Positions 12,308 through 45,976 of a stretch of 52,770 nt of DNA are shown here, one piece after another (position 1 is the stretch's first letter; each line of letters begins with the position of its first letter). Source of the stretch: Chloroflexota bacterium (lineage in GTDB: Bacteria > Chloroflexota > Dehalococcoidia > UBA2979); assembly GCA_009837285.1 (NCBI GenBank), contig VXTU01000037.1, forward strand, positions 1-52,770, written 5' to 3'. A program made the position numbers and the translations under genes. The notes beneath the pieces are model-generated. The model had not been told where the DNA came from, searched no databases, and saw only the letters and a list, made by a program, of their open reading frames with translations.

Positions 12308-13576
12308 ATGACGATCTCGACCGAGCGAACCTCGGCACTCCCGACGGCCACACCGGACGGACGGCCGCTGCCGCTTGCCGGCGTGCGTGTGGTCGACTTC
12401 ACGTGGATCGTCGCCGGGCCGCAGGCGACGCGGATCCTCGCGGACTTCGGCGCAGACGTGATCAAGGTGGAGAACGAGAGCCACCTGGACTCCGTGCGGA
12501 TGGGCGGCTCGCCGGCGGACGACGCGGCGCGCTTCAACAGCTCCGGCCTCTTCAACAACCTCAACCGCAACAAGCGCAGCCTGACCATCAACCTCTTCCA
12601 CCCGCGCGGCCGCGAGCTCCTGGAGGAGCTGATCGCGGGCGCCGACGCGGTCACGGAGAACTTCAGCCCCGGCGCCTTCGAGCGCATGGGATTCGGCTGG
12701 GACCGCCTGCGCGAGCTCAACCCGAACATCATCTACATGTCGCTCTCGGGCTTCGGGCACCTCGGGCGTGACTCGTCGTACGTGACGTGGGGCCCCACGG
12801 CGCAGGCGATCTCCGGGCTGACGTACCTGTCCGGCCTGCCGGATCAGCCGCCGGCCGGGTGGGGCTACTCCTACCTCGACCACTCCGCGGGCTACTACGG
12901 CGCGATCGGCCTGATGCTCGCGCTGCGCAAGCGGTCGCGCGAGGGGGGCCCGCTCCGCGTCGACCTCTCGCAGGCCGAGACGGGGATGGTGATGACCGGC
13001 GCGCAGATGCTGGACGCGCAGGTCAACAACCGGCCCTCGCAGCGCTCCGGCAACCTGCTGCCGTACCCCGAGATCGCCCCGCACAACACCTACCGCTGCG
13101 CGGGCGAGGACCGCTGGATCGCCCTCGCCGTCGAGACCGACGACCACTGGGCGGCGCTCTGCGACGTGCTCGGCGCCGACGCGCTCGCCTCCGACCCGCG
13201 GTTCGGCACCAACAGCGGGCGCGTCGAGGCGCGCGAGGAGCTGGACGCGGCGATCGACGCGCTCACGCGCGGCTGGGACACCCGCGAGCTGATGTACGCC
13301 CTGCAGGCGCGCGGCGTGCCGGCCGGCGTCGCGCAGACCACCGAGGACAAGATGGAGCTGGACCCGCAGCTCGCTGCGCGCGGCTTCTATCCCCGCGCCG
13401 ACCACCCGATCCTCGGCGAGCACCGCTTCGAGTCGCTCCCGTTCCAGCTCTCGCGCTTCGGCTGGCACCTGCGCCGCGGGGCGCCGCTGCTCGGCGAGCA
13501 CAGCGACGACGTGCTCGCCGAGTTGGGCTGCGACGAGGACGAGATCGCGCGGCTGCGCGAGGAGCTGGCGATATGA
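12308..13576 (+). CDS. CaiB/BaiF CoA-transferase, A-type
   Basis: VRVVDFTWIVAGPQATRILADFGADVIKVE; putative catalytic Asp in LRVDLSQAE; LQARGVPAGV. Confidence 0.93.
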   Translation: MTISTERTSALPTATPDGRPLPLAGVRVVDFTWIVAGPQATRILADFGADVIKVENESHLDSVRMGGSPADDAARFNSSGLFNNLNRNKRSLTINLFHPRGRELLEELIAGADAVTENFSPGAFERMGFGWDRLRELNPNIIYMSLSGFGHLGRDSSYVTWGPTAQAISGLTYLSGLPDQPPAGWGYSYLDHSAGYYGAIGLMLALRKRSREGGPLRVDLSQAETGMVMTGAQMLDAQVNNRPSQRSGNLLPYPEIAPHNTYRCAGEDRWIALAVETDDHWAALCDVLGADALASDPRFGTNSGRVEAREELDAAIDALTRGWDTRELMYALQARGVPAGVAQTTEDKMELDPQLAARGFYPRADHPILGEHRFESLPFQLSRFGWHLRRGAPLLGEHSDDVLAELGCDEDEIARLREELAI

Positions 13577-14832
13577 GCACCGGCGCTGAAGGACTCCGCA
13601 TCATTGAGATCGGCGACCTCGGCGAGGTCGCCGGGAAGCTGCTGGCCGACGCCGGAGCCGACGTCATCCGCGTCGAGCCGCCGAACGGCGCGCCCGCCCG
13701 CCGCATCGGCCCGTTCCCGGGCGACCGCCCGGACACGAACAGCTCGCTGCACTGGGCCCACTTCAACACGAGTAAGCGCGGCATCACGCTCGACATCGAG
13801 ACCGCCGACGGCCTCGCGCTGTGGTGGCGGCTGGTCGACGGCGCCGATGCGGTCATCGACGCCGCCGGTCACGGCGTGCTCGACGCCGCGGGCGCCGGCT
13901 GGGACGAGGCGGCGCGGCGCTACGACGGCAAGTCGCTCACCTGGTGCTCGGTCACGCCGTTCGGCCGCGAGGGGCCGTGGGCGGACTGGGCCTCTAACGA
14001 CCTGATCCAGATCGCGCTCGGCGGCCCGATGATGAGCACCGGCTATGACGACCACGAGCTGCCGCCGATCCGCGGCGGCTACGACCACTCGCTGTGGATG
14101 GGCGGCGAGTACGCCGCGATCTCCATCCTCGGCGCGACCGCCGGCTTCGAGGCCGGCCTCGCCGACGGCCCGGAGCTCGTCGACCTCTCGATCCACGAGT
14201 GCGTGAGCTGCACCGTGGAGGGCGCGTTCCCGAACTGGGAGTACGACGGCCGACTGGTGCAGCGCCAGACCGGGCGGCACTCCTCGCCGGACCCGACGCC
14301 CGCGTGGCAGTTCCCCAGTGCCGACGGCCACTACATGAACGTCATCGGCGGCGGGCTGCCTCGCTCCGAGCAGGGGCTCGCCGACGTGCTCGACTGGATG
14401 GAGTCGCTCGGTCAGGTCGGCGACCTGCGCGACCCGAAGTATACCGAGGCGATCCACGCCTCGCCGATGTCGCCGAACGCGGACCGCCGCCACTTTGCGG
14501 AGGCGATCCAGCACTTCATCGGCACCCTCGACGCCGAGGACAGCTACCGCGGCGCGCAGGGCCTGCACCAGCCGTGGGCCATCGTCCGCGCGCCCGAGGA
14601 GAACCTCGACGATCCTCACTGGACCGACCGCGGCACATTCGCGGAGGTCGAGGTGCCCGGCCACCCCGAGCCCGTCCGCGTGCCCACCGCCCCGTATCGC
14701 TTCGACGGCGTCACGCGGCAAGTGCGCCGCCGCGCGCCCATGCTCGGCGAGCACAACCGCGAGGTGTACGTGACCGAGCTCGGCCTGAGCGACGCGGAGA
14801 TCCTCCGCCTCGCGCAGATCGAGGTGGTCTAG
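13573..14832 (+). CDS. CaiB/BaiF CoA-transferase, B-type
   Basis: ATGA overlap with the previous gene; GEVAGKLLADAGADVIRVEPPNG; ELVDLSIHE. Confidence 0.92.
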   Translation: MSTGAEGLRIIEIGDLGEVAGKLLADAGADVIRVEPPNGAPARRIGPFPGDRPDTNSSLHWAHFNTSKRGITLDIETADGLALWWRLVDGADAVIDAAGHGVLDAAGAGWDEAARRYDGKSLTWCSVTPFGREGPWADWASNDLIQIALGGPMMSTGYDDHELPPIRGGYDHSLWMGGEYAAISILGATAGFEAGLADGPELVDLSIHECVSCTVEGAFPNWEYDGRLVQRQTGRHSSPDPTPAWQFPSADGHYMNVIGGGLPRSEQGLADVLDWMESLGQVGDLRDPKYTEAIHASPMSPNADRRHFAEAIQHFIGTLDAEDSYRGAQGLHQPWAIVRAPEENLDDPHWTDRGTFAEVEVPGHPEPVRVPTAPYRFDGVTRQVRRRAPMLGEHNREVYVTELGLSDAEILRLAQIEVV

Positions 14833-30814: not shown

Positions 30815-30929
30815 TGCGGGAGACGCGCACCACCGGTGAGTCGCCGCGTCGCTCCGCCGCCACGCTGGCCCGTTGCGGTGCAAGGCCCGCCCCGCGCCGC
30901 TACCATGCGGGCCGAGGGGGAGGCCCACG

Positions 30930-31646
30930 ATGCACGAGGCGCTGACAGTCGAACGAGACGGCGGGATCGCGACCTTCACGATCACGCGACCGCGCGTCAA
31001 CGCGCTCAGCCTCGACCTGCTCGAGTCGTTCGCCGAGGAGCTCCATCGCGCCGCCGATGACCCCGAGGTCGTCGTCGCCGTGTGGCGCAGCGGCCTGCCC
31101 AACATCTTCAGTGGCGGCTTCGACCTGGCCGACGAGGGTCCGAGCGCCGTGCACCACATGCCCGGCGAGCGGACCGTGCGCGTCCGCAACGCCCAGACCG
31201 CGCTGCTGGACATCCCGATCCCGATCATCGTCGCCGTAAACGGCCCGGCCGTCGGCCTTGGCCTGCTCATGCCGGCGCTCTGCGACATCGTGGTGGCGGG
31301 GCGCAGCGCGCGCTTCGGGCTGCCCGAGGTCCAGATCGGCGCTATCGGCGGCGCAGGCCACGCGCGCCGCATCCTGCCCGAGCCCGTCCTCCGCTACATG
31401 ATGCTCACCGGCCGGCGCGTCTCGCCCGAATACCTCCAGCAGTGCGGCGCCATCTCGCTCGTCGTCGACGACGACCAGCTCGAGGAGGAGACGATGGCGA
31501 TCGCGCGCGAGATCGCCTCGTACGACCCGGTCGTCGTGCGCAACAACAAGATCGCGCTCCAGATGCTGCGGGGCGTCGACGACGTCGCCACCGTCTACGC
31601 GATCGAGCACAAGTGGGGCGCGGCGATCCGCGCCTCCCGCGAGTAG
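30930..31646 (+). CDS. Enoyl-CoA hydratase/isomerase (crotonase) family
   Basis: ATG at 30930; FSGGFDLADEG, VNGPAVGLGLLMPALCDIVVA, RFGLPEVQIGAIGGAGHARR. Confidence 0.88.
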   Translation: MHEALTVERDGGIATFTITRPRVNALSLDLLESFAEELHRAADDPEVVVAVWRSGLPNIFSGGFDLADEGPSAVHHMPGERTVRVRNAQTALLDIPIPIIVAVNGPAVGLGLLMPALCDIVVAGRSARFGLPEVQIGAIGGAGHARRILPEPVLRYMMLTGRRVSPEYLQQCGAISLVVDDDQLEEETMAIAREIASYDPVVVRNNKIALQMLRGVDDVATVYAIEHKWGAAIRASRE

Positions 31647-31658
31647 CGAGGAGCCCCG

Positions 31659-32894
31659 ATGCCGAAGGCCCTCGCGGGCTACCGCATCTGCGACTTCACC
31701 GGCCAGCTCGCCGGCGCGGGGGCGACGCGTCACCTCGCGGCATTCGGCGCGGAGGTCATCCGCATCGAGGACCCGGTGAACGAGGGGCGCTGGGACATCC
31801 TGCGCGGCCAGCCGCCGTACAAGGACGAGCGGCGCGGCATCAACCTCGGCGGCTCGTTCAACAACCACAACGTCGGCAAACGCGGGATCACCCTCAACCT
31901 CCGCACGGAGCGCGGCAAGGAGCTGCTCACCGAGCTTGTCGAGGTATCCGACGTGGTCTCGGAGAACTTCTCGGCGGGTGTGATGGACCGCCTTGGGTTC
32001 GGCTACGACCAGCTACGGGCGATCAAGCAGGACATCGTCTACGTATCGAACAGCGGGTTCGGGAAGCAGGGGCCGTACGGCACGTACAAGACGTGGGGCC
32101 CCATCGTGCAGGCGGTGTCCGGGTTGACGTGGACCTCGAAGCTGCGCGACCTGGAGCCTGCCGGGTGGGGCTACTCCTACATGGACCACACCGGCGGCTA
32201 CTACATGTGCATCGCCATCCTCGCCGCGCTGCACCACCGCAACATGACCGGCGAGGGCCAGTGGGTCGACATGTCGTGCACCGACGCCGGCGCGACGCTC
32301 ACCGGGCCGGCGGTCCTCGACTACACCGCCAACGGCCGCCCGACGCGGCGCGACGGCCTGCCGGACTCGAACCACAACCGCTGGCCGCCGATGGCGCCCC
32401 ACGCCGTCTACCCCGCCGAGGGCGAGGACAACTGGATCGCCATCGCCTGCCGCGACGAGCAGGACTGGCACGCGCTCGCCGCTGAGGTCGGCGAGCCCTG
32501 GACCGGGGACCCGCGCTTCGCCACCCTCGACGGCCGCATCGAGCACGAGGCCTCGCTCGACGAGGCGCTTGGCGGCTGGACGGCGTCGCGTGACAGGTTC
32601 GAGACAGCCGAGCGGCTGCGCGCGGCCGGGGTGCCCGCCTCGGCTGTGCAGCGCCCCGGGGACCGCATCGACCACGACGTGAACACGAGCGCGTGGGGCC
32701 TGTGGCCCACCGTGCGGCAGACGGACATGGGCGACGTGCGCGTCGACGGCGTACCCGCCCACCTGAGCGAGACCGAGTGGGAGCTGGAGCACGGCGCGCC
32801 GAACCTCGGCGAGCACAACGAGGAGGTCTACGGCGAGCTGCTCGGCCTCGACGCCGACGAGATCGCGAGCCTGCGCGAGGAGGGCGTGATTTGA
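31659..32894 (+). CDS. CaiB/BaiF CoA-transferase, A-type
   Basis: YRICDFTGQLAGAGATRHLAAFGAEVIRIE; GEGQWVDMSCTDAG; RAAGVPASAV. Confidence 0.93.
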   Translation: MPKALAGYRICDFTGQLAGAGATRHLAAFGAEVIRIEDPVNEGRWDILRGQPPYKDERRGINLGGSFNNHNVGKRGITLNLRTERGKELLTELVEVSDVVSENFSAGVMDRLGFGYDQLRAIKQDIVYVSNSGFGKQGPYGTYKTWGPIVQAVSGLTWTSKLRDLEPAGWGYSYMDHTGGYYMCIAILAALHHRNMTGEGQWVDMSCTDAGATLTGPAVLDYTANGRPTRRDGLPDSNHNRWPPMAPHAVYPAEGEDNWIAIACRDEQDWHALAAEVGEPWTGDPRFATLDGRIEHEASLDEALGGWTASRDRFETAERLRAAGVPASAVQRPGDRIDHDVNTSAWGLWPTVRQTDMGDVRVDGVPAHLSETEWELEHGAPNLGEHNEEVYGELLGLDADEIASLREEGVI

Positions 32895-34144
32895 CCGCCC
32901 CGGCCGGCCCCCACGGACCCATGCACGGCCTGCGCGTGGTCGAGCTGTGCGAGGAGATCGGCGAGTTCGCCGGCAAGCTCCTCGCTGACATGGGTGCGGA
33001 CGTGGTCAAGGTGGAGCCCCCCGGCGGCTCGCAGACGCGCTCGTTCGCGCCCTTCCTGGACGACGAGCCGCACCCGGATCGCAGCCTCTTCTTCTGGCAC
33101 TACAACACCAGCAAGCGCTCCGTCGCGCTCGACCTCGACAGCGAGGATGGCCGCGAGGCGTTCCGCAGACTGGTCACCGGCGCCGACGTGCTGGTGGAGG
33201 ACCGTGCGCCCGGCTGGATGGCCGAGCGCGGCCTCGACTACGAGGACCTGCGCGGCGACAACCCGGACCTCATCCACTGCGCCATCACGCCGTTCGGGCG
33301 TTCCGGCCCGCGCGCCGACGACCCCGCCACCGACCTCACGATCCTCGCGGGCGGCGGCCCGATGTGGTCGTGCGGCTACGACGACCACTCGATCCCACCG
33401 GTGCGAGGTGGTGGCAACCAGGGCTACCAGACGGGGTGCCACTGGGCGCTGATCACCATCCTGACGGCGCTGCTCTACCGCGACGGCGGTGGCGGCGGCC
33501 AGTTCATCGACGTGAGCCTGCACGCCGCCTCGAACGTGACGACCGAGGCGGGGAGCTACCAGTGGCTGGTCGCGCAGGAGACCGTGCAGCGCCAGACGGG
33601 CCGCCACGCGGGCGTGAGGGAGTCCGGGCCGACGCAGGTGCAGGCGAAGGACGGGGTGTGGATGAACACCGGCCTGTTCCCGCGCCGCCCGCACGAGTTC
33701 CGCACCCTCATCGAGTGGATGCAGGAGCTCGGCCTCTACGACGAGTACGAGCAGTCGCCACTGCTCGAAGTGGGCGCGGGTATGGACCGCATGCTGGACA
33801 TGGCCCGCGCCGCCGAGGACGACGAGGAGGCGGCGCTGCTTACCGCGGGGCGCGAGGCGATGATCTTCCTCGTGGAGCGCATGGACGCGTACGACTACTT
33901 CTACGGAGCGCAAGAGCGCGGCTTCCAGGTCGGCATCATCTACGCGCCCGAGGACGTGATCGAGGACCCGCACTTCATCGCGCGCGGCTTCCGCACGGAG
34001 GTCGAACACCCGGAGTTGGGCCGTTCGTTCGTCTACCCCGGCGCGCCGTACGCCTTCCAGGGATCCCCGTGGGCCATCACACGCCGCCCGCCACTACCGG
34101 GCGAGCACACCGCGGAGGTGCTCGCCGAACTGGACCACGCCTGA
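32891..34144 (+). CDS. CaiB/BaiF CoA-transferase, B-type
   Basis: TTG start overlapping previous stop (alternative ATG 32921); LRVVELCEEIGEFAGKLLADMGADVVKVEPPGG; GGGQFIDVSLH. Confidence 0.92.
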   Translation: MTAPAGPHGPMHGLRVVELCEEIGEFAGKLLADMGADVVKVEPPGGSQTRSFAPFLDDEPHPDRSLFFWHYNTSKRSVALDLDSEDGREAFRRLVTGADVLVEDRAPGWMAERGLDYEDLRGDNPDLIHCAITPFGRSGPRADDPATDLTILAGGGPMWSCGYDDHSIPPVRGGGNQGYQTGCHWALITILTALLYRDGGGGGQFIDVSLHAASNVTTEAGSYQWLVAQETVQRQTGRHAGVRESGPTQVQAKDGVWMNTGLFPRRPHEFRTLIEWMQELGLYDEYEQSPLLEVGAGMDRMLDMARAAEDDEEAALLTAGREAMIFLVERMDAYDYFYGAQERGFQVGIIYAPEDVIEDPHFIARGFRTEVEHPELGRSFVYPGAPYAFQGSPWAITRRPPLPGEHTAEVLAELDHA

Positions 34145-34154
34145 GGACGGAACC

Positions 34155-36647
34155 ATGACCGCATCACCATCCCCCAACGGCCACGCGAGGCCCCTCGATG
34201 GCATCCGCGTACTGGACCTCGCCACCGGGCACTGCGAGATCGCGGGTCGGCTGCTCGCCGACGTCGGCGCCGAGGTGATCAAGATCGAGCCGCCCGGCGG
34301 CCACCCCTCGCGCCGCATGCCCCCATTCGTCGACGGCCGCGAGGGCGAACTTGACGGCTCGCTGCACTGGGCCGCGTACGGCATCGGCAAACGCAGCGTC
34401 GTGCTCGACCTGGACGGCGAGGCCGACCGTGAGCGGCTGCGCGAGCTGGCGCGAGGGGCCGACGTGCTCGTCGAGTCGCTGGAGCCGGGCGTACTCGCAG
34501 CGATGGGACTCGGCTACGACGACCTGCGCGCGCTCAACCCCGCACTCGTCTACGCCTCGATCAGCCCGTTCGGGCAGACGGGCCCGCACGCGCACCGCCC
34601 CGCGACCGACCTGACGCTCCAGGCCGCAGGAGGACTCGTCTCGATGCAGGGCGACCCGGACCGGCCGCCGATCCCGGTCGGCTTCCCGCAGGCGGGCCTG
34701 CACGCCGGCGTACAGGCTGCCGCGGACGTGGTGGTCGCCCTGAACGAGCGTGACGACTCCGGGCTCGGCCAGCACCTCGACACCTCGATGCAGGCGTGCG
34801 TCGTCTGGACGCTGCTGGATGCGACTGGCTACCCGCCGAATGAGGGTGGCGACAAGCCGGGCTACGGCGACGACCGCGCCGACGCCGCCCCGCCCCGGAC
34901 ACCCGGCCTCGACCTCCCGACCATGCTCGAGGTGGCCGACGGGTACACGACAAGCACCCTCGGCGCCCAGGCCACGATGCTGAATACTGCGAACCAGGCC
35001 GTTGCCTGGCTGCTGCGAGACGGCCCTGGACTCCCCGAGCACCTGCGCGGCATCGACTGGGAGCACTGGCACGAGGATTGGGTCGAGCCCGGCGTCGCGC
35101 CCGAGAGCGCTCCGCTCGTGAACGAGGCCTTCCAACACGTGCTCACGTTCCTCCGCTCCAAGACCAAGGCGGAGCTGCATCCGTGGTCGCTGGAGACCAA
35201 GGCGCTGGTCGCGAAGATCGCGAACGCGAAGGACCTGATCGAGGATCCGCAGCTGGCGGCCCGTGGCTACTGGCGGGAGGTCGGCGGGCACACCGTGCCC
35301 GGCCCCTTCGTGCGCTTCACACGCACGCCGGTCGGCTCCGTCGAGCCCGCCCCCACGCTCGATGAGGGCGCCACGCTGCTCGACACGCCGCGTCACCCCT
35401 CGGTCAACGGCAACGCCTCGAACGGTACGAGCGGGCAACGCCCACGGACGTTCGAGGGGCTCAAGGTCGCCGACTTCTCGTGGTACGGAGTCGGGCCGCT
35501 CATCGCCAAGGCGCTCGCCGACCATGGCGCGACCGTCGTGCACGTTGAGTCCGAGCGCCACTTTGACGGACTGCGGCTGGGCCCCCCGTTCAAGGACGGC
35601 GAGATCAACATCGACAAGGCACAGTTCTTCGCCAACTTCAACTCCTCGAAGCTCGGGATGTCGATCGACCTCTCGCACGAGGTCGGCCGCGAGATCGCGC
35701 GCGACCTGACGCAATGGGCCGATGTGATGGTGGAGAGCTTCACGCCGGACACGATGGAGCGGCACGGCCTGGACTGGGCGACGCTCGGCCCCGACCACCC
35801 CGAGCTGGTGATGGTCCGGACCTGCCTGCGAGGGCAGACCGGGCCCGAGCGGCGCTACACGGGCTTCGGCATGCAGGGCGCGGCGCTCGCCGGTTTGCAC
35901 GCCGTGACGGGCTGGCCGGACCGGCCGCCCATCGGCCCCTACGGCGCCTACACCGACTTCATCAACCCTCGCTTCGGCCTCCTCGCCGTTGCCTCCGCCC
36001 TCTACGAGCGGCGGCGCAGCGGCAAGGGGCAGCTCGTCGACCTCTCGCAGGCCGAGGCCGCGATCCACTTCCAGTCGCCGCTCGTACTCGACTACGCCGC
36101 CAACGGCCGCATCGCGGGCGCCGCCGGGCACAACTCGATGACCGACGCGCCCAACGGCGTCTACGCCTGCCGGGGTGTCGAGCGCTACATCGCGATTTCG
36201 TGCGCGACGACGGAGCAGTGGCATGTCCTGCGCGACCTCGCCAGGCTCGATGGATTCGACGGGCCGGAGTACGAGACGTACGCAGGCCGCCAGGCCGACC
36301 GCGCGCGCATCGACGACGCGCTCGCGGCGTGGTGCGCGGACCAGGACGGCCACGAGCTGGCGGCGCGGCTGACCGACGACGGCGTACCCGCCTCGGCGGT
36401 GCTGCGCGCGACCGACCTCTACGAGGACGCGCAGCTCGCGCACCGCGAGTTCTTCGTGACGCTGGACCACCCGGCGATGGGACCGACGCCGTACGACGGC
36501 CTCGCAACGCAGTACTCGGGTTCACCCGGCAGGCTCAGCAAGGCCGCTCCGTTGTTCGGCGAGGACACGTACTACGTCCTCACCGAGCTACTAGGCGCGG
36601 ACCCCGAGGATGTGGCGCGGTACGCGGAGAGCGGCGCACTTTCCTAG
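34155..36647 (+). CDS. Tandem-domain CaiB/BaiF CoA-transferase (B-A order)
   Basis: 830 aa; N-domain IRVLDLATGHCEIAGRLLADVGAEVIKIEPPGG / GLGQHLDTSMQ; C-domain LKVADFSWYGVGPLIAKALADHGATVVHVE / GKGQLVDLSQAE; junction near 35440. Confidence 0.93.
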   Translation: MTASPSPNGHARPLDGIRVLDLATGHCEIAGRLLADVGAEVIKIEPPGGHPSRRMPPFVDGREGELDGSLHWAAYGIGKRSVVLDLDGEADRERLRELARGADVLVESLEPGVLAAMGLGYDDLRALNPALVYASISPFGQTGPHAHRPATDLTLQAAGGLVSMQGDPDRPPIPVGFPQAGLHAGVQAAADVVVALNERDDSGLGQHLDTSMQACVVWTLLDATGYPPNEGGDKPGYGDDRADAAPPRTPGLDLPTMLEVADGYTTSTLGAQATMLNTANQAVAWLLRDGPGLPEHLRGIDWEHWHEDWVEPGVAPESAPLVNEAFQHVLTFLRSKTKAELHPWSLETKALVAKIANAKDLIEDPQLAARGYWREVGGHTVPGPFVRFTRTPVGSVEPAPTLDEGATLLDTPRHPSVNGNASNGTSGQRPRTFEGLKVADFSWYGVGPLIAKALADHGATVVHVESERHFDGLRLGPPFKDGEINIDKAQFFANFNSSKLGMSIDLSHEVGREIARDLTQWADVMVESFTPDTMERHGLDWATLGPDHPELVMVRTCLRGQTGPERRYTGFGMQGAALAGLHAVTGWPDRPPIGPYGAYTDFINPRFGLLAVASALYERRRSGKGQLVDLSQAEAAIHFQSPLVLDYAANGRIAGAAGHNSMTDAPNGVYACRGVERYIAISCATTEQWHVLRDLARLDGFDGPEYETYAGRQADRARIDDALAAWCADQDGHELAARLTDDGVPASAVLRATDLYEDAQLAHREFFVTLDHPAMGPTPYDGLATQYSGSPGRLSKAAPLFGEDTYYVLTELLGADPEDVARYAESGALS

Positions 36648-36704: not shown

Positions 36705-37877
36705 ATGGCGGGGACGATGCGAGGGACGACGGCGATCGTCGGCCTTGCCGAGACTACCTACTACAAGCGCGGCGGCGCCGAGGACGCTGAGTTCAAGCTT
36801 GGCCTCATGGCCGTGCGCGCAGCCGCCGAAGACGCGGGCATCGACGTCCGTGACATCGACGGCTTCTGCTCCTACAGCAACGACCGCAACGACCCGACGC
36901 GCTTCCACACCGCGCTCGGCCTGCACGACCTCAAGTGGGCCTCGATGGTGTGGGGCGGGGGCGGCGGTGGCTGCGCCGGCGCCGTGGCCATGGCCGCCGC
37001 GGCCGTACACGCCGGGATCGCGACGAACGTCGTCGTGTTCCGTGCGTTGGCGCAGGGCCAGTTCGGCCGCTTTGGCGCGGCGAGCCAGACCGGCGCGCTG
37101 CAGGGCGCGGCGGCCTACACCCAGCCCTACGGGCAGATGTCGCCGGCGCAGTCGTACGCGATGAAGGTCACGCGCTTCATGCACGACCACGGGGTGGAGC
37201 AGAGCGCGCTGCGGGCCGTCTCGCTCGCGAGCTACTACCACGCCCAGCGCAACCCGCGAGCCGTGATGTACGGCCGGCCGTTGGACGAGGAGAAGTACGA
37301 CAGCTCGCGCTGGATCGTCGAGCCGTTCCACCTGTACGACTGCTGCCAGGAGAACGACGGCGCCGCCGCAGTCATCGTCACGACGGCCGAGCGCGCCCGC
37401 GACATGAAGAACAAGCCGGTCTACATCCTCGCCGGCGGGCAGGGCTCGCAGCACCGGCAGTCGGCGTGGGCACACAACGCGCCGGACTACGGCACCTCGA
37501 ACTTCAAGAACAACGCGAAGTCGATGTTCGACATGGCGCAGGTCAAGCCGGAGGAGGTCGACGTCGCGCAGGTGTACGAGAACTTCACCGGCGGCGTGGT
37601 GATGAGCATCATCGAGCACGGCCTGATCCCGGTGGAACGGGCCAACGAGGAGTTCACACTCGACAACTTCCGCTTCGACGGCGGCAAGCTGCCGCTCAAC
37701 ACCTCGGGCGGCAACCTCGCAGAGTGCTACATGCACGGCTTCGAGCTGATCACGGAGGCTGCGCGACAGATCCGCGGCGAGTCGACCGCGCAGGTCGACA
37801 GCCCCGAGATCTCGCTCGTCGCCGGTGGGCCGATGGTCGAGCCGACGAGCAACCTGCTCCTCGGCGCGCAGGTCTAG
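36705..37877 (+). CDS. Thiolase-superfamily protein (lipid-transfer/SCP-x type)
   Basis: TTAIVGLAETTYYKRGG, VRAAAEDAGIDVRDIDGFC, GGGGGGCAGAVAMAAAAVHAGIATNVVVFRA, LNTSGGNLAECYMHG. Confidence 0.88.
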   Translation: MAGTMRGTTAIVGLAETTYYKRGGAEDAEFKLGLMAVRAAAEDAGIDVRDIDGFCSYSNDRNDPTRFHTALGLHDLKWASMVWGGGGGGCAGAVAMAAAAVHAGIATNVVVFRALAQGQFGRFGAASQTGALQGAAAYTQPYGQMSPAQSYAMKVTRFMHDHGVEQSALRAVSLASYYHAQRNPRAVMYGRPLDEEKYDSSRWIVEPFHLYDCCQENDGAAAVIVTTAERARDMKNKPVYILAGGQGSQHRQSAWAHNAPDYGTSNFKNNAKSMFDMAQVKPEEVDVAQVYENFTGGVVMSIIEHGLIPVERANEEFTLDNFRFDGGKLPLNTSGGNLAECYMHGFELITEAARQIRGESTAQVDSPEISLVAGGPMVEPTSNLLLGAQV

Positions 37878-37891
37878 GAGGGAGGCCGACA

Positions 37892-38362
37892 ATGGCGAAC
37901 GCAAGCAGGGCCGACATCGAGGCCGGCGGCAGCTACCTCCCGACGCCCGTCGCCACGCCGGTGGCTATGGCGGACGGCCTCGACACGCCTCACTACGAGG
38001 GCAAGGAGCGCGACGAGCTGTGGGTGCAGTACTGCGCGGAGTGCTCGGAGCACCAGTGGGGCCCCGAGTGGATCTGCCACGGCTGCCACAGCTACGACGT
38101 CGGGTGGCGGCAGGTGGCGCCCGAAGGGAAGATCTTCTCGTGGGAGCGGATCTGGCACCCCGTCCACCCCGACCTCGCCGAGGCGGTGCCGTACGTGGTG
38201 GTGCTCATCGAGCTGCCGCACGCGGACGACATCCGCATGGTCGGCAACCTCCTCGGTGACCCCGAGGAGGAGATCGTGATCGGGACGGAGGTCGAGGCGG
38301 TGTTCGAGCACCACCCCGATCACGATCCGCCCTACACTCTCGTCCAGTGGTCCCGGAAGTAA
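37892..38362 (+). CDS. DUF35 Zn-ribbon/OB-fold protein
   Basis: QYCAECSEHQWGPEWICHGCHSYDVGWRQVAPEGKIFSWERIWHPVHP; paired with thiolase. Confidence 0.9.
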   Translation: MANASRADIEAGGSYLPTPVATPVAMADGLDTPHYEGKERDELWVQYCAECSEHQWGPEWICHGCHSYDVGWRQVAPEGKIFSWERIWHPVHPDLAEAVPYVVVLIELPHADDIRMVGNLLGDPEEEIVIGTEVEAVFEHHPDHDPPYTLVQWSRK

Positions 38363-38452
38363 GCGAACGCGCACCGGGTAACGAGGACGCGCTGGCTACC
38401 GCCTGAGCGCGGCGACCGCTCCCCGGACACGGGGGCGGGGAAGGAAGAAGAC

Positions 38453-39613
38453 ATGGACTACGAGATGCCCGCGGAGGTGCTCGAATTCCGCAAGCAGGTG
38501 CAGGACTTCATCACCAGTCACCGCACCCCCGAGCTCGAGGCGGAACTCGCCGAACACCACATCCACGGCTACGGTCCGGCCTCGCAGGCGTTCATGCAGG
38601 CGATGGCGCGAGAGGGCCTCGCCGCCGTCTCCTGGCCGGAGGAGTACGGCGGCCAGGGCAAGGGCGCCCTCTTCCTGTGGACCCTCGCCGAGGAGTGCGC
38701 GCGCGAGGGCGTGCCCTTCGACAACCTCACCTTCATCTCCGTCGGGCCGATGATCATGCGCAACGGCACCGAGGAGCAGAAGCAGGAGATCCTGCCCAAG
38801 GTGCTGCGCGGCGAGATGAACTTCGCGTTGGGATACACCGAGCCGAACGCCGGCACCGACCTCGCGTCGATGCAGACGCGCGCCACCCGTGACGGCGACG
38901 AGTGGGTGATCAACGGGCAGAAGATCTACACGTCGTCCGCCCACCTCGCGACGCACGTCTGGCTCGCGGCGCGGACGGAACCCGAGGCGCCGAAGCACCG
39001 CGGCATCTCGACCTTCGTGCTGCCGCTGAACACGCCCGGGATCACCGTCCGCCCGCTCTGGGTGATGGGCGAGGGCCGCACCAACGAGACCTTCTGGGAG
39101 GACGTGCGCATCCCCGCGGACTCGCTCATCGGCGAGGAGAACCGCGGCTGGTACATCGTCAGTGGCGCGCTCGACCTCGAGCGCGTGGCGATCGGCACCT
39201 ACCGCCCGCTCGAGAAGACCGTGTCCGACATGGTCGAGCACATCAAGGCAGAGCGGCCGGAGCTTGCAGATGACGCCTTTGCCCGGAACGCGGTCGCCGA
39301 CGCGCTGATGCGCGTCGAGGTGGCCCGTGCGCTCGCGACGAACAACGCGGCGATGGTGCACAGCGGGCTGATCCCGACGATGGAAGCCTCGATGGGCAAG
39401 ATCTGGACGACTGACTCCCGCGAGCGCGTCAACGACGCCTTCATGGACCTGCTCGGCCGCAGCGGCGGCATGCAGGCCGAGAACGGCGACGCCCCGCTCG
39501 ACGGCGCGCTCGACGCGGCGTGGCGCGGCGCCCCGGTGGGACGGTTTGGCGGCGGCACCAACGACATCCAGCGGCGCATCATCGCCAACCGCGGCCTCGG
39601 GCTGCCTCGCTAG
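38453..39613 (+). CDS. Acyl-CoA dehydrogenase, long subunit
   Basis: SWPEEYGGQGKG, LGYTEPNAGTDLASMQTRATRDGDEWVINGQKIYTS, GGTNDIQRRIIANRGLGLPR. Confidence 0.94.
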   Translation: MDYEMPAEVLEFRKQVQDFITSHRTPELEAELAEHHIHGYGPASQAFMQAMAREGLAAVSWPEEYGGQGKGALFLWTLAEECAREGVPFDNLTFISVGPMIMRNGTEEQKQEILPKVLRGEMNFALGYTEPNAGTDLASMQTRATRDGDEWVINGQKIYTSSAHLATHVWLAARTEPEAPKHRGISTFVLPLNTPGITVRPLWVMGEGRTNETFWEDVRIPADSLIGEENRGWYIVSGALDLERVAIGTYRPLEKTVSDMVEHIKAERPELADDAFARNAVADALMRVEVARALATNNAAMVHSGLIPTMEASMGKIWTTDSRERVNDAFMDLLGRSGGMQAENGDAPLDGALDAAWRGAPVGRFGGGTNDIQRRIIANRGLGLPR

Positions 39614-39624
39614 GCTGCTATATC

Positions 39625-39645
39625 CCCTCTCCCTTCGGGAGAGGG
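39625..39645. repeat. Dispersed palindromic GC-rich repeat
   Basis: CCCTCTCCC-TTC-GGGAGAGGG followed by TGGGGCCGAGGG. Confidence 0.75.
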
Positions 39646-39682
39646 TGGGGCCGAGGGCCAGAGCCCTCTCAGGGAGGACGAC

Positions 39683-40756
39683 ATGGATCTCCGACTCAGC
39701 GAACTGCAGGAACTGCTCCGCGCCAACGCGCAGGAGTTCTTCGAGCGCGAAGTCACGTTCGAGCGCATCCGCGAGATCGAGGCGGCGGACACGCCGGACA
39801 CCCAGCTCTGGGAGCAGATGGTCCAGCTCGGCTGGACGTCCCTCCCCATCGCCGAGCAGTACGGCGGGCAGGGCGGCACCCTGCTCGACACCTCGATCCT
39901 CGTCAACGAGGCGTGCCGCGTCGCGCTACCCAGCCCGTTCACGTCGACGCTGATCGGCGCGGCGGCCGTGCAGGCGCACGGCTCCGAGGACGTCAAGAAC
40001 TCGCTGCTGCCCCGACTCGCCGACGGCGTGGCGATCTCCTCGGCCGTGCTTGAGTCCGACGACGCCATCTACGGCGACCCGCAGACCACGTCGGACGGCT
40101 CGACCGTCAGCGGTGAGAAGCGCTTCGTCGAGTTCGGCGCGACCAGCGACGTGCACCTCGTCACGGCGACACGAAACGGCTCGCAGGGCATCGCCGTGGT
40201 GTCGCGAGACCAGGCCGGGGTGGAGCTGAGCCCCGTCCAGACCATCGGCGCCATCCCGCAGGTCCACGTTCGCTACGACGGCGCCGCCGTGGAAGGCTGG
40301 ATCGAGGGCGCCGAGGCCGTCGACGGCCTGCGCGACCTCGGCACGGCGCTCACCGCGTTCGAGGCTTACGCGTACGCACAGAAGGCGCTCGACCTCACGG
40401 TCGAGTACGTGCAGCTGCGCGTGCAGTTCGGCCAGCCGCTCGGCGCGTTCCAGGCGGTGCAGATGCGCTGCGCCGACATGGCGACGATCGTCGAGGGCTC
40501 GCGCTTCCTCGCGAACGAGCTGCTGTGGAAGCTCGACCAGGGCGAGGCGACGCGCCGCGATGTGGCGATGGTGAAGGCGATCACCTCGAAGATGGCGCCG
40601 CAGGTGCTGCAGGACTGCCACATGCTCCACGGCGGCATTGGCTACATGCAGGAGTACGACCTGCACTTCTTCACGCGGCGCGGCAAGGAGGCCTCGCTGC
40701 GGTGGGGCTCCGCCCGCGAGGCGATGAACGTCGTCGTGGACACCGCCTTCGCCTAG
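39683..40756 (+). CDS. Acyl-CoA dehydrogenase, short subunit
   Basis: LGWTSLPIAEQYGGQGGTLLDTSILVNEA, QLRVQFGQPLGAFQAVQMRCADM, HMLHGGIGYMQEYDLHFFTRR. Confidence 0.93.
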   Translation: MDLRLSELQELLRANAQEFFEREVTFERIREIEAADTPDTQLWEQMVQLGWTSLPIAEQYGGQGGTLLDTSILVNEACRVALPSPFTSTLIGAAAVQAHGSEDVKNSLLPRLADGVAISSAVLESDDAIYGDPQTTSDGSTVSGEKRFVEFGATSDVHLVTATRNGSQGIAVVSRDQAGVELSPVQTIGAIPQVHVRYDGAAVEGWIEGAEAVDGLRDLGTALTAFEAYAYAQKALDLTVEYVQLRVQFGQPLGAFQAVQMRCADMATIVEGSRFLANELLWKLDQGEATRRDVAMVKAITSKMAPQVLQDCHMLHGGIGYMQEYDLHFFTRRGKEASLRWGSAREAMNVVVDTAFA

Positions 40757-40791: not shown

Positions 40792-40817
40792 GGGGCGTCG
40801 TCAGGCGACGACGCCCC
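40792..40817. terminator. Hairpin between convergent genes, overlapping the CaiB stop codon
   Basis: GGGGCGTCGTC-AGGC-GACGACGCCCC: 11-bp perfect stem; minus-strand stop at 40801-40803 lies inside. Confidence 0.7.
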
Positions 40818-41994
40818 TCTCTTTGAGCGCCGCGATCGACTCGGCCGACTCGCCGAGCTCGGCGAGCACCTCGTCGGTGTGCTGGCCGAGGTAGGCCGCT
40901 GCGCTGCGCACGTTGCCGGGCGTGCCCAGCAGCTTCGGCGCGACGCCCACCTGGCGCACCGTGCCAGCGTCTTCGTCCTCGACGTCGAGTGCCATCTCGC
41001 GCTCCTGCTGGTGTGGGTCGTCCATCATCTCGTCGAGATCGAGCACGGGCGTAAGGCACGCGTCGAGGTGGCCGAAGTCGGCGAACCACTCGTCGCGAGG
41101 GCGCTCGCGGAAGCGCGCTGCGAACGCCGCCTGCATGTCGGCCTGCCGGTCAGGGTCGTTCTGATGCGGGATGAACTCCTCGAAGCCGAGCGCCCGGCAC
41201 AGCTCCTCGAAGAAGTACGGCTCGATCGCGCCCACGCTGATCCAGCGGCCGTCGGCGCACTCGTAGACCTGGTAGTAGCAGCGCGCGCCGGCGAGCGCGT
41301 GGTCGCCGCGGCGCGGGGGGCCCGCGCCGCCAAGCATCGCCGCCACGTGCGAGACCATCAGCGAGGCGACCCCGTCGGACATCGCGGCGTCCACGTCCTG
41401 GCCGCGGCCGGTGCGCTCGCGTGCCTGCAGCGCGAGCAGGATGCCGAAGGCGGCCATCAGCCCGCCGCCGGCGAAGTCGGCAATGATGTTGAGCGGAAGC
41501 ACCGGCTCGCCCTGTGCGTTCCCGATCGACCCCAGCGCTCCACCGATCGAGATGTAGTTGATGTCGTGCCCCGCGCGGGGCTCGTACGGCCCGCTGCGCC
41601 CGAAGCCGGAGACCGAGCAGGTGATGATCCGCGGGTTGATAGCCTTGAGGCGCTCGTAATCGATGCCGAGCCGCCTCGTCACCCCGGGGCGGAACCCGTC
41701 GATGACCACGTCGGCGCGCTCGACGAGCGCGCGGAAGATGCGTTGGCCGTCCTCGTCGCGGAGGTTGATGGCGGCGCCGCGCTTGTTGCGACGCAACGCC
41801 TGGTGGGCGAGCGCGGTTGCCTCCTCGTCCGTCTCCGGCGGGCCGTTGCGCACCTCAAAGCGGGCGACGGCGCCCGGGGGCACCTCGACCATGAGGACGT
41901 CGGCGCCGAAGTCCGCGAGGAGCATGGAGGCGTACTGGCCTGGCGGGGTGCGGGAGAGGTCGAGGACGCGAACGCCCTCTAGCGCCATGGTCAT
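40801..41994 (-). CDS. CaiB/BaiF CoA-transferase (racemase/formyl-CoA-transferase-like)
   Basis: VRVLDLSRTPPGQYASMLLADFGADVLMVEVPPG; GRGQDVDAAMSDG. Confidence 0.93.
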   Translation of the reverse strand: MTMALEGVRVLDLSRTPPGQYASMLLADFGADVLMVEVPPGAVARFEVRNGPPETDEEATALAHQALRRNKRGAAINLRDEDGQRIFRALVERADVVIDGFRPGVTRRLGIDYERLKAINPRIITCSVSGFGRSGPYEPRAGHDINYISIGGALGSIGNAQGEPVLPLNIIADFAGGGLMAAFGILLALQARERTGRGQDVDAAMSDGVASLMVSHVAAMLGGAGPPRRGDHALAGARCYYQVYECADGRWISVGAIEPYFFEELCRALGFEEFIPHQNDPDRQADMQAAFAARFRERPRDEWFADFGHLDACLTPVLDLDEMMDDPHQQEREMALDVEDEDAGTVRQVGVAPKLLGTPGNVRSAAAYLGQHTDEVLAELGESAESIAALKERGVVA

Positions 41995-42216: not shown

Positions 42217-43389
42217 GTGACATCACTCACCGACCGGATCCGCACACCGCACGGGCGGGCCGTGCAGGGCCTCGGCGGCTATCGCGCCTAGGTGCCTGCC
42301 CCCGCACCGCCGCCGCTGGCGTGGGACATCGACCTCGTGGTGAGCCTGTCGGCCGCAGACCTCGCAATCGGCCGGCTCGCCGGCGAGGGGCGGCGTCTAC
42401 CCAACCCGCACATCCTGATCCGCCCGTTCGTCCGCAAGGAGGCCGTCCTGTCGAGCCGCATCGAGGGGACCCAGGCCACGCTCGGCGAGCTCCTCGCGGC
42501 CGAGGCGGGAGCCTCGGTTGAGCGCAGCCGCGACGATCTCCGCGAGGTGGGAAACTACGTCATTGCGCTCGAGTACGGGCTGGCGCGTCTGGAGTCGCTG
42601 CCCGTCTCGCTGCGGCTCGTGCGCGAGTTGCACGAGCGCCTCATGCGCGGCGTCCGTGGCGACGTGGCGACTCCCGGCGAGTTCCGGCGCAGCCAGAACT
42701 GGATCGGGTCGCCCGGGGCCACGCTCAACGACGCGACATATGTCCCCCCGCCGCCGCCCGAGCTGATGCCGTGCCTGGACGCGTGGGAGCGGTTCATGCA
42801 CGACGAGACGCTGCCGCCGTTGCTGCACGCGGCCATCGCGCACGTCCAGTTCGAGGCGATCCACCCGTTCCTCGACGGCAACGGCCGCGTCGGGCGCCTG
42901 CTCATCACGCTGTCGCTGGTCGCGCAGGGCGTCCTGCCCTCGCCGCTGCTCTACCTCAGCGCCTGGTTCGAGGCGACGCGCGACGAGTACTACGCGCGCC
43001 TGCTGGCCGTAACGCAGCGCGGCGAGTGGGAGGAGTGGCTGACCTACTTCCTCCGCGGCGTCACGCGCCTGTCCGACGACGCCGTCGGCCGGCTCCAGCG
43101 CCTCGACGACCTGCTTGCGGGATGGAGGCGCGAGCTCGCCGGGGCCAGGTCCCGGCAGCCGGAGCTCGCCCTCGACCTGTTCGCCGAGAACCCGTTCTGG
43201 GCCGTCGGCGGCGTGGCGGAACGGCTGGGAGTCGCGTTCACCACGGCCCAGCGCGCCATCGACCGGCTGGTCGAGGCGGGAATCGTCGCGCAGGTCGGCG
43301 AGGCGCAGCGCAACCGGGTGTACTGCGCCGGCGCGGTCCTTGACCTGCTGGAGGAGGAGCCGCGCTTCCCTACCAATGGCGTCTCGTGA
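42217..43389 (+). CDS. Fic/DOC-family AMPylase-type protein with C-terminal wHTH; in-frame TAG at 42289-42291 after a 24-codon N-terminal segment (ORF track 42292..43389)
   Basis: SSRIEGTQATL inhibitory motif, HPFLDGNGRVGRL Fic core. GTG at 42217 gives VTSLTDRIRTPHGRAVQGLGGYRA-TAG-VPAPAPPPLAW..., matching the usual GYRAFxPxPLPP N-terminus. Confidence 0.85.
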
Positions 43390-43504: not shown

Positions 43505-45976
43505 CTACGTCAGCGCGTCGGCGGCCGCGAGCTCGGCGATCTCGTCCGGGGCGAGGCCGAGGAGTTCGGCGAGCACGTACTGCGTGTCCTCGCCGAGCGC
43601 GGGGGCCGCCTTGCTGAGCAGCCCGGGCGTCGCCGAGAAGTGCGTCGCCAGTCCGTCGTACGGCGTCGGACCCATCACCGAGTGGTCCAGCGTCACGAAG
43701 TGGCCGCGATGCGCGAGCTGGGCGTCCTCGTACAGGTCCAGCGGGCGCAGGCACACCGAGGCGGGCACGCCGGCGTCGCGCAGCCGCTTTGCCAGCGCCC
43801 ACGGATCCTGTCCCGCGCACCAGGCCGCCATCCCCTCCTCGATCGCCTCGCGGTCGGCGAGGCGCGCCGAGGCCGCCTCGTAGCGCGGGTCGCCGTGGTC
43901 GGGCAATGCCCCGAGCGAGTGCAGCGCGCGCCACTGCTCGGCCGTCTGGACCTCGATCGCGACGTAGCGCTCCAGGCCCGCCGTCGCGTAGACGCCGTGT
44001 GGGCAGCTGGTGAGCGAGGCGTGTCCCACGGGGCCGGCGACGCGGCCGTTGACGGTGTAGTCGAGGATCAGCGGTTCGATGAAGTGGATCGAGGTCTCCA
44101 CCTGCGAGAGGTCGACGTACTGGCCGCGCCCTGAGCGGTTGCGTTCGAAGAGCGCCGAGGCCAGCGTCGCGATGCCGTAGCGGGGGTTGATGAAGTCCGT
44201 GTAGGCGCCCCACGGCCCCGCCGGGTCGCGGTCGGGCCAGCCCGTGATGGCCGAGATACCGGCCATCGCGGCGCCGTGGCTGCCGAAGCCGCTGATGGTG
44301 CGGAGCGGGCCGGTCTCCCCGCGCATCGATGTGCTCAGCATGATGAGCTCGGGATGGTCGGCGCGGAGCTCCTCCCAGCCGAGGCCCAGCCGGTCCGCGA
44401 CGCCCGGCGTGAAGCTCTCGGTGACGATGTCCGCCCAGTCGCAGAGCCGCCGCGCCAGCTGGCGCCCCTCGGGCGTCCCGAGGTTGACCGAGGCGCCGAG
44501 CTTCGAGGAGTTGTAGTTCGCCATGAACTGCGCGCGATTGATGTCCACGATGCCGTCCTGGAACGGCGGGTTGAGCCGCGTGCCGTCGATGCGCGTCGCC
44601 GACTCGACGTGCACGACGGTCGCGCCGTGGTCCGCGAGGCCCTTGCTGATGAGCGGCCCCACCCCGAACCACGCGAAGTCGGCCACCTTGATGCCCTCGA
44701 AGGCCCGACCGCGCGCGCCGTATTGCCGGGCGGCGGGTAGCAGCGGCTCGCGCGGCTGCCGCAGCAGGCCGTTGGCCTCGCCCGGCTCGGGCGGCGGCGC
44801 GTGTGGTCCGAGGGGGGTGCGCGAGAGCTTTGCGAACGGGCCGGGGTAGGTGCGTCCGCCGATCTCTCGCCAGTAGTCGCGCGACCGTAGTTGCGGGTCG
44901 TGGAAGAGGTCGTGGGCCGTGTTGAACGGCGCGACCATCAGCGTGACCTGCACGGCGCGTTCGACGAGCTCGATCTTGGTCTTGCTCGCGAGGAACTCGA
45001 CGGCGAGGCGAATCGCCTCGTCCGCGACGTCGAACGGCAGCTCACCGCGCTCGTACAGGTTCTGCCAGTCGTACCAGTCGACGGCGCGCACGTGGTGCGG
45101 CAAGCCCTGCCCCTCATCGATCCACGCGAGGGTGTTCGCGAGCGTCTGCCATCCGGCCGGGCCGTGCCCGATGGTCAGCGCGACGAGCCCGTCAGCGACC
45201 TCGAGGACGCTCGGCAGCTCCAGGTCGCCGACGGTGGGTGCGGCGCCCGTGCCGAGAGCACGCTCCGCCCCCGTGCCCGGCGGATCGATGCCGAGGAGGG
45301 GCGGGAACCCCGTGGCGTGCATGAGCGTCCAGACCATGCACGACTGCATCGAGACGTCGAGGTGCTGGCCCATGCCGGAGCGGTCGCGCTCGAACAGCGC
45401 GACGACGGCGTCGGCGGCGGCCTGCGCGCCCGCGTGAAACGACGCCTGCGGGTAGCCGACGGGAATGGGCGGGCGGTCGCCGTCACCCTGCAGGCCGACA
45501 AGGCCGCCCGCGGCCTCAATCGTGAGGTCGGTCGCTGGCGCGTGCGCCAGCGGGCCGTCCTGCCCCCACGGCGATACCGATACATAGACGAGTGCGGGGT
45601 TGAAGATGCGCACGTCGTCGTACCCGAGCCCGAGGCCGTCGAGGTAGCCGGGCGGCGAGGACTCGACGAGCACGTCGGCGCCCGCGATGAGCCGGCGCAG
45701 CGTGTCGCGGTCACGGTCGGCGGCGATGTCGAGCGTGACGCTGCGCTTGCCCAGCGAGACCGCCGCCCAGCACAGCGAGCCGTCCGGCGAGTCATCCTCG
45801 CCGTCGGTGAACGGGGGGCGCCTGCGGCCGGGGTCGCCGCCCGGCGGCGAGAACCGGATTAACACGGCCCCGAGGTAGGCGAGCCCCCGCCCCGCGAGCA
45901 CCGCGAACGAGGGAGCGCGGTCGACGACTCGGACGCCAGCGAGGGGGCCGGTGACCTCGGCCGCGGCGTCCGTCAC
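43505..45976 (-). CDS. Tandem-domain CaiB/BaiF CoA-transferase (B-A order), paralog of 34155..36647
   Basis: 823 aa; GMGQHLDVSMQS and GRGQYVDLSQVE; same domain order and C-terminus (YDGLATHFSATPGLLSKAAPALGEDTQYVLAELLG); junction near 44705. Confidence 0.93.
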   Translation of the reverse strand: MTDAAAEVTGPLAGVRVVDRAPSFAVLAGRGLAYLGAVLIRFSPPGGDPGRRRPPFTDGEDDSPDGSLCWAAVSLGKRSVTLDIAADRDRDTLRRLIAGADVLVESSPPGYLDGLGLGYDDVRIFNPALVYVSVSPWGQDGPLAHAPATDLTIEAAGGLVGLQGDGDRPPIPVGYPQASFHAGAQAAADAVVALFERDRSGMGQHLDVSMQSCMVWTLMHATGFPPLLGIDPPGTGAERALGTGAAPTVGDLELPSVLEVADGLVALTIGHGPAGWQTLANTLAWIDEGQGLPHHVRAVDWYDWQNLYERGELPFDVADEAIRLAVEFLASKTKIELVERAVQVTLMVAPFNTAHDLFHDPQLRSRDYWREIGGRTYPGPFAKLSRTPLGPHAPPPEPGEANGLLRQPREPLLPAARQYGARGRAFEGIKVADFAWFGVGPLISKGLADHGATVVHVESATRIDGTRLNPPFQDGIVDINRAQFMANYNSSKLGASVNLGTPEGRQLARRLCDWADIVTESFTPGVADRLGLGWEELRADHPELIMLSTSMRGETGPLRTISGFGSHGAAMAGISAITGWPDRDPAGPWGAYTDFINPRYGIATLASALFERNRSGRGQYVDLSQVETSIHFIEPLILDYTVNGRVAGPVGHASLTSCPHGVYATAGLERYVAIEVQTAEQWRALHSLGALPDHGDPRYEAASARLADREAIEEGMAAWCAGQDPWALAKRLRDAGVPASVCLRPLDLYEDAQLAHRGHFVTLDHSVMGPTPYDGLATHFSATPGLLSKAAPALGEDTQYVLAELLGLAPDEIAELAAADALT

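Follow-up and report, generated by a model that had tools for sequence, protein, structure and literature searches.

Family III CoA-transferases are built from subunits that form interlocked dimers (PMC9196870). Tandem CaiB fusions and heteromeric family III enzymes are already known, as is the expansion of CaiB in related Chloroflexota. Among the heteromeric enzymes, BbsEF belongs to the benzylsuccinate pathway, together with the thiolase BbsAB, and consists of two separate polypeptides, one with the catalytic Asp and one without it. In DddD, which has DMSP lyase activity and a ddd gene context, two CaiB domains stand in tandem in one chain of about 820 amino acids, and the catalytic residue, Asp602, is in the second domain. 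The two domains of DddD span residues 1–416 and 439–821 (PMC7174347). In SAR202 and sponge Chloroflexota, paralogues of the same enzyme family, CaiB/BaiF, are greatly expanded; the available portions of the studies that report this describe neither a split into A and B partners nor fusions in both orders (PMC5395668, PMC6306507).

Here we describe an 830-amino-acid chain from a Chloroflexota genome of 2.4 Mb (91% complete) that very probably represents a heteromeric CoA-transferase of the BbsEF type merged into a single polypeptide. The window, that is, the whole stretch of DNA analysed, is 52,770 nucleotides long and constitutes one entire contig of this genome. Like BbsEF, the protein combines an Asp-bearing and an Asp-less unit, but as two domain types (A and B) of one chain. 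With DddD it shares the tandem layout, the only feature compared, whereas activity and gene context set DddD apart. The novelty is modest: one small genome carries at least 12 fusions, with both domain orders represented.

A two-domain CoA-transferase in the window

The reading frame predicted for the fusion is uninterrupted, with no internal stops, both domains complete and all of the motifs originally quoted for it in place (Table 1). A Pfam search matched PF02515 twice (E = 3e-159), and this domain together with the catalytic Asp of the C-domain places the protein in family III; against the NCBIfam CoA-transferase equivalogs, its best score was 284 bits, below the curated cut-off of 750. 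In alignment, Asp601 falls on Asp178 of the BbsEF Asp chain, for which the title of PDB entry 9fol names a D178-CoA adduct, and it is invariant in 19 aligned fusions. The corresponding position of the N-domain has no Asp. Identity between the C-domain and the BbsEF Asp chain is 35% (TM up to 0.95), and the N-domain matches the other BbsEF chain over almost its entire length.

Table 1 Coordinates of the CoA-transferase genes, fusion parts and neighbouring genes in the window
Feature	Position	Strand	Remarks
Split A subunit	12308..13576	+	First A-then-B pair
Split B subunit	13573..14832	+	First A-then-B pair
Enoyl-CoA hydratase/isomerase family protein	30873..31646	+	
Split A subunit	31659..32894	+	Second A-then-B pair; Asp present; separate clade
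Split B subunit	32891..34144	+	Second A-then-B pair; Asp absent
B-A tandem family III CoA-transferase fusion	34155..36647	+	830 aa
N-domain, B type	34155..35408	+	Residues about 12–418; without catalytic Asp (PQAGLHAG)
Linker	35409..35444	+	GNASNGTSGQRP; low-complexity; lowest pLDDT at residues 422–426
C-domain, A type	35445..36644	+	Residues about 431–830; catalytic Asp601 (GAYTDFINPRFG)
Ltp2-like aldolase, SCP2-thiolase superfamily	36705..37877	+	TcLtp2 catalytic Tyr pair kept (Y291, Y342)
DUF35/ChsH2-C OB-fold protein	37889..38362	+	Probable aldolase partner; E = 5.5e-11
Acyl-CoA dehydrogenase	38453..39613	+	Closest to Tcur3483 and PDB 4x28
Acyl-CoA dehydrogenase	39683..40756	+	Closest to Tcur3481 (partner subunit of Tcur3483)
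Family III CoA-transferase or racemase, single-domain	40801..41994	-	Outside the A and B clades
Second B-A fusion	43505..45976	-	823 aa; 57% identical to the fusion at 34155–36647

Relatives of the fusion (41–82% identity) are present in 10 further family genomes and in two more distant ones, and we therefore reject an assembly artefact as its source. The nearest relative found is in the Chloroflexi MAG SB0661_bin_44 (81% identical), where the gene neighbourhood is the same; in one of the 10 family relatives, the B part is split across frames. Matches at E ≤ 1e-150 occurred in 11 of the 40 family genomes sampled, including the source genome, and a sample of 151 genomes from the phylum yielded two besides the source at E ≤ 1e-140 (40% and 38% identity). 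Outside the phylum, the close matches found are split B-A pairs and a single B gene truncated at a contig end; more distant fusions are carried on plasmids of Rhodococcus and Diaphorobacter. A close relative in genome G013 (locus L103, 5038–7712, +) is apparently broken by a frameshift between the domains, possibly through assembly error or as a pseudogene. Its overlapping frames resemble a frameshifted fusion, so we set it aside as a candidate split orthologue and kept it out of the evidence.

Two further genes lie around the second fusion in the window, which the original prediction had overlooked: a gene for an SDR adjoins it, and a Fic-domain protein (42292–43389, +) is encoded between it and the single CoA-transferase gene.

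Domain origins, domain order and operon order

With the 830-amino-acid protein as query, the genome yielded 77 matches, the loci of which were then read. At least 12 fusions were recognized: nine in B-A order (two in the window, two adjacent on contig C34, and one each on C16, C57, C105, C74 and C31), two in A-B order (C50 and C89) and one from another lineage (C68). Split B-then-A pairs number eight (C70, C90, C39, C12, C44, C124, C92 and C145, with those on C124 and C145 cut by contig ends), and single-domain CoA-transferase genes number about 12. Split A-then-B pairs number two, both within the window and both with a 4-base overlap between their genes. Their places and order are as originally noted, and the A and B assignments are confirmed independently by the catalytic Asp and by the tree.

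Loss of the Asp is not universal in B-type domains, as those on C34 and C90 retain one. At locus L038 (3340–8315, +), two neighbouring, similar B-A fusions have an Asp at the catalytic position in both domains of each, and their split relatives on C90 (L039) keep it as well. A tandem fusion at L054 (1542–4034, +) seemingly lacks the catalytic Asp in both domains, which cluster with single-domain enzymes on long branches. The A-B fusions of the source genome include L048 (3616–6234, -), kept in three other family genomes, and L051 (4642–7224, +).

In a quick, midpoint-rooted tree of 100 domains, the B type separated from the A type plus single-domain enzymes with 88% SH-aLRT support, and a careful tree of 48 domains recovered the same split (support of 100/98). 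In both trees, every N-domain of the B-A fusions falls within B and every C-domain within A, which is the domain placement that had been predicted. Both halves belong to one Pfam family, as they would if a single CoA-transferase gene had been duplicated internally and one copy had then lost its Asp. This origin can be ruled out and has a negligible probability in our estimate: each half is nearer to a different split subunit, and an approximately unbiased (AU) test rejects it at p ~1e-77 under the model used. The pairing of both domains in one place on the tree, named in advance as the outcome that would overturn the prediction, did not occur. The AU values given here are approximate because the clades were partly named after the first tree was seen.

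The clade of B-A fusions is flanked on both the A and the B sides by split B-then-A pairs. These neighbours come from Binatota and proteobacterial MAGs (L032–L035), from C70 of the source genome and from a plasmid of Aromatoleum aromaticum EbN1. The EbN1 pair (EBN1_RS22145/RS22140) and that of a Binatota MAG (L033) are among the nearest split relatives of both halves, with the same order as the fusion but in two genes, and some pairs of this kind have overlapping stop and start codons. The C70 pair is sister to a fusion from another genome (L074 in G026), again on both sides. The fusion does not fall inside the BbsE or BbsF clades on these trees; the Bbs chains join a Variovorax pair, in a group close to that of the fusion yet distinct from it. 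The window's A-then-B pairs group with the A-B fusion on C50 in a clade distinct from that of the B-A fusions. The C50 fusion is itself conserved at 55–59% identity in genomes G023, G011 and G035, and in G011 an A-B fusion stands beside a split A-then-B pair.

These placements bear on the claim that the B-A order is an anomaly, for which an A-then-B operon like its neighbours would have had to reverse its gene order before fusing. Such a pair (31659/32891) does lie directly upstream of the fusion on the same strand, yet we regard a reversal as highly improbable. For both sides, AU tests reject a common group of the fusion and the A-then-B clade (p = 6e-4 for the B-type and 6e-8 for the A-type domains), which also rules out stop-codon loss in the neighbouring pair as its origin, and the nearest split relatives on both trees are already B-then-A. 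Furthermore, two order changes suffice for the whole set and set a few A-first rows apart from the rest; in the quick tree, the A and the B sides each required two order changes and seven changes between fused and split states, a count that leaves their directions unsettled. Judged from these trees, domain order follows operon order, lineage by lineage, because the nearest split relatives are B-then-A and the A-then-B clade has A-B fusions of its own; the ancestry of the fusion needs no reversal. The family III CoA-transferases of this genome have undergone several independent fusion events. Of the original prediction, the origins of the domains and the pseudo-heterodimer considered below stand, and the anomalous order, which came from comparison with the wrong operons, does not.

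The junctions of split B-A pairs are short or overlapping, with an ATGA or GTGA overlap in four (L037, L041, L075 and L078), and the linker GNASNGTSGQRP stands at this place in the fusion. With several such junctions in pairs of the same order as the nearest split relatives, a small deletion or frameshift would suffice for fusion; as the B and A genes are in different frames in most pairs, this, and not stop loss alone, would be the usual minimal route. Starting from a B-then-A operon, a small change at the junction would delete the B stop and bring A into frame, leaving the B half joined to the A half by a flexible linker of about 15–30 residues.

Predicted structure, catalysis and possible function

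AlphaFold2 was run on 19 fusions, with two plasmid rows left out of the alignment. The model of the window's fusion has a mean pLDDT of 89 and a pTM of 0.92, and residues with a pLDDT below 50 are found at the N terminus and in the linker, which is predicted with low confidence and is probably flexible. The best PDB matches are the Asp chains of BbsEF (TM of 0.93–0.95 on the target), followed by other family III enzymes. A pTM of 0.92 indicates confident relative placement of the two predicted halves, and does not by itself demonstrate an interlock. The A-B fusion L048 was modelled from 7 similar sequences, with a pLDDT of 50, too low to be informative.

With this pTM and with both halves matching BbsEF, the single-chain pseudo-heterodimer originally suggested is the best structural reading. 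The halves could instead pair between chains, as domain-swapped dimers or higher oligomers in which the fusion would be a mere tether. We consider this unlikely: family III subunits are interlocked dimers (PMC9196870), BbsEF entries hold chains A–D and the linker appears flexible, but the prediction for one chain is a single body of high confidence. On the model, the fusion is most likely a one-chain, BbsEF-like pseudo-heterodimer with a single live active site, the two halves adopting, inside the one chain, the interlocked two-ring arrangement typical of such dimers. An acyl-CoA donor would pass its acyl group to Asp601, in the Rossmann domain of A, and this residue would become an aspartyl-CoA thioester, from which the carboxylate acceptor would receive CoA. 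The Asp601 site would be shut by B's small domain, and B's own site would be dead. Given the approximate two-fold symmetry of the dimer, B-A and A-B junctions should be geometrically equivalent, which fits the finding of both fusion orders.

Downstream of the fusion, the aldolase resembles the steroid aldolase Ltp2 (E = 3.5e-66) more than it does the thiolase subunit of BbsAB (E = 1.1e-15), and we therefore reject a Bbs-like thiolysis module: the neighbour is not the partner thiolase BbsAB of bbs-type systems. The aldolase, DUF35 protein and dehydrogenase pair (36705–40756, +) recall steroid side-chain degradation, here in a Chloroflexota genome. Genome G020 has the same hydratase, dehydrogenases and DUF35 protein around the fusion, with two MaoC-hydratase-like proteins (judged by eye) in place of the aldolase. 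The module is common to the source and two same-genus genomes, and, among the other relatives examined, most have the fusion in a different place.

A function of the DddD type, in which a CoA thioester (for example of DMSP or a related onium compound) is formed and then cleaved, would be consistent with the shared two-CaiB-domain architecture (PMC7174347). In the available portion of the SAR202 study, moreover, DddD is the top Swiss-Prot match for a subset of acyl-CoA transferases, and lyase roles are suggested (PMC5395668). The dehydrogenase, Ltp2-type aldolase and DUF35 neighbours fit steroid-like side-chain oxidation better, and the DddD type seems to us improbable. Because the module resembles those for steroid side-chain shortening, CoA would most likely be transferred to a bulky carboxylic acid, a tentative assignment that is weakened by the fact that the fusion mostly occurs without the module in more distant relatives. 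As a BbsEF-like transferase, the fusion would probably supply the neighbouring module of dehydrogenase, hydratase and Ltp2-type aldolase with a bulky or branched carboxylic acid that it activates without using ATP.

Fusion among interlocking paralogues

The apparent evolutionary puzzle posed by the B-A fusion is removed, as fusion order tracks operon order. Fusing may keep the numerous paralogous A and B subunits from joining the wrong partner. As a general solution to such mispairing, genomes with dozens of interlocking paralogues would fuse catalytic with non-catalytic subunits repeatedly and in both orders, keeping the fused chains private and non-exchanging; this is a possibility that we regard as rather doubtful. 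Within a single small genome, the same obligate dimer occurs in split pairs as well as in fusions, in both orders, which offers a natural experiment in which interlocked heterodimers become single chains.
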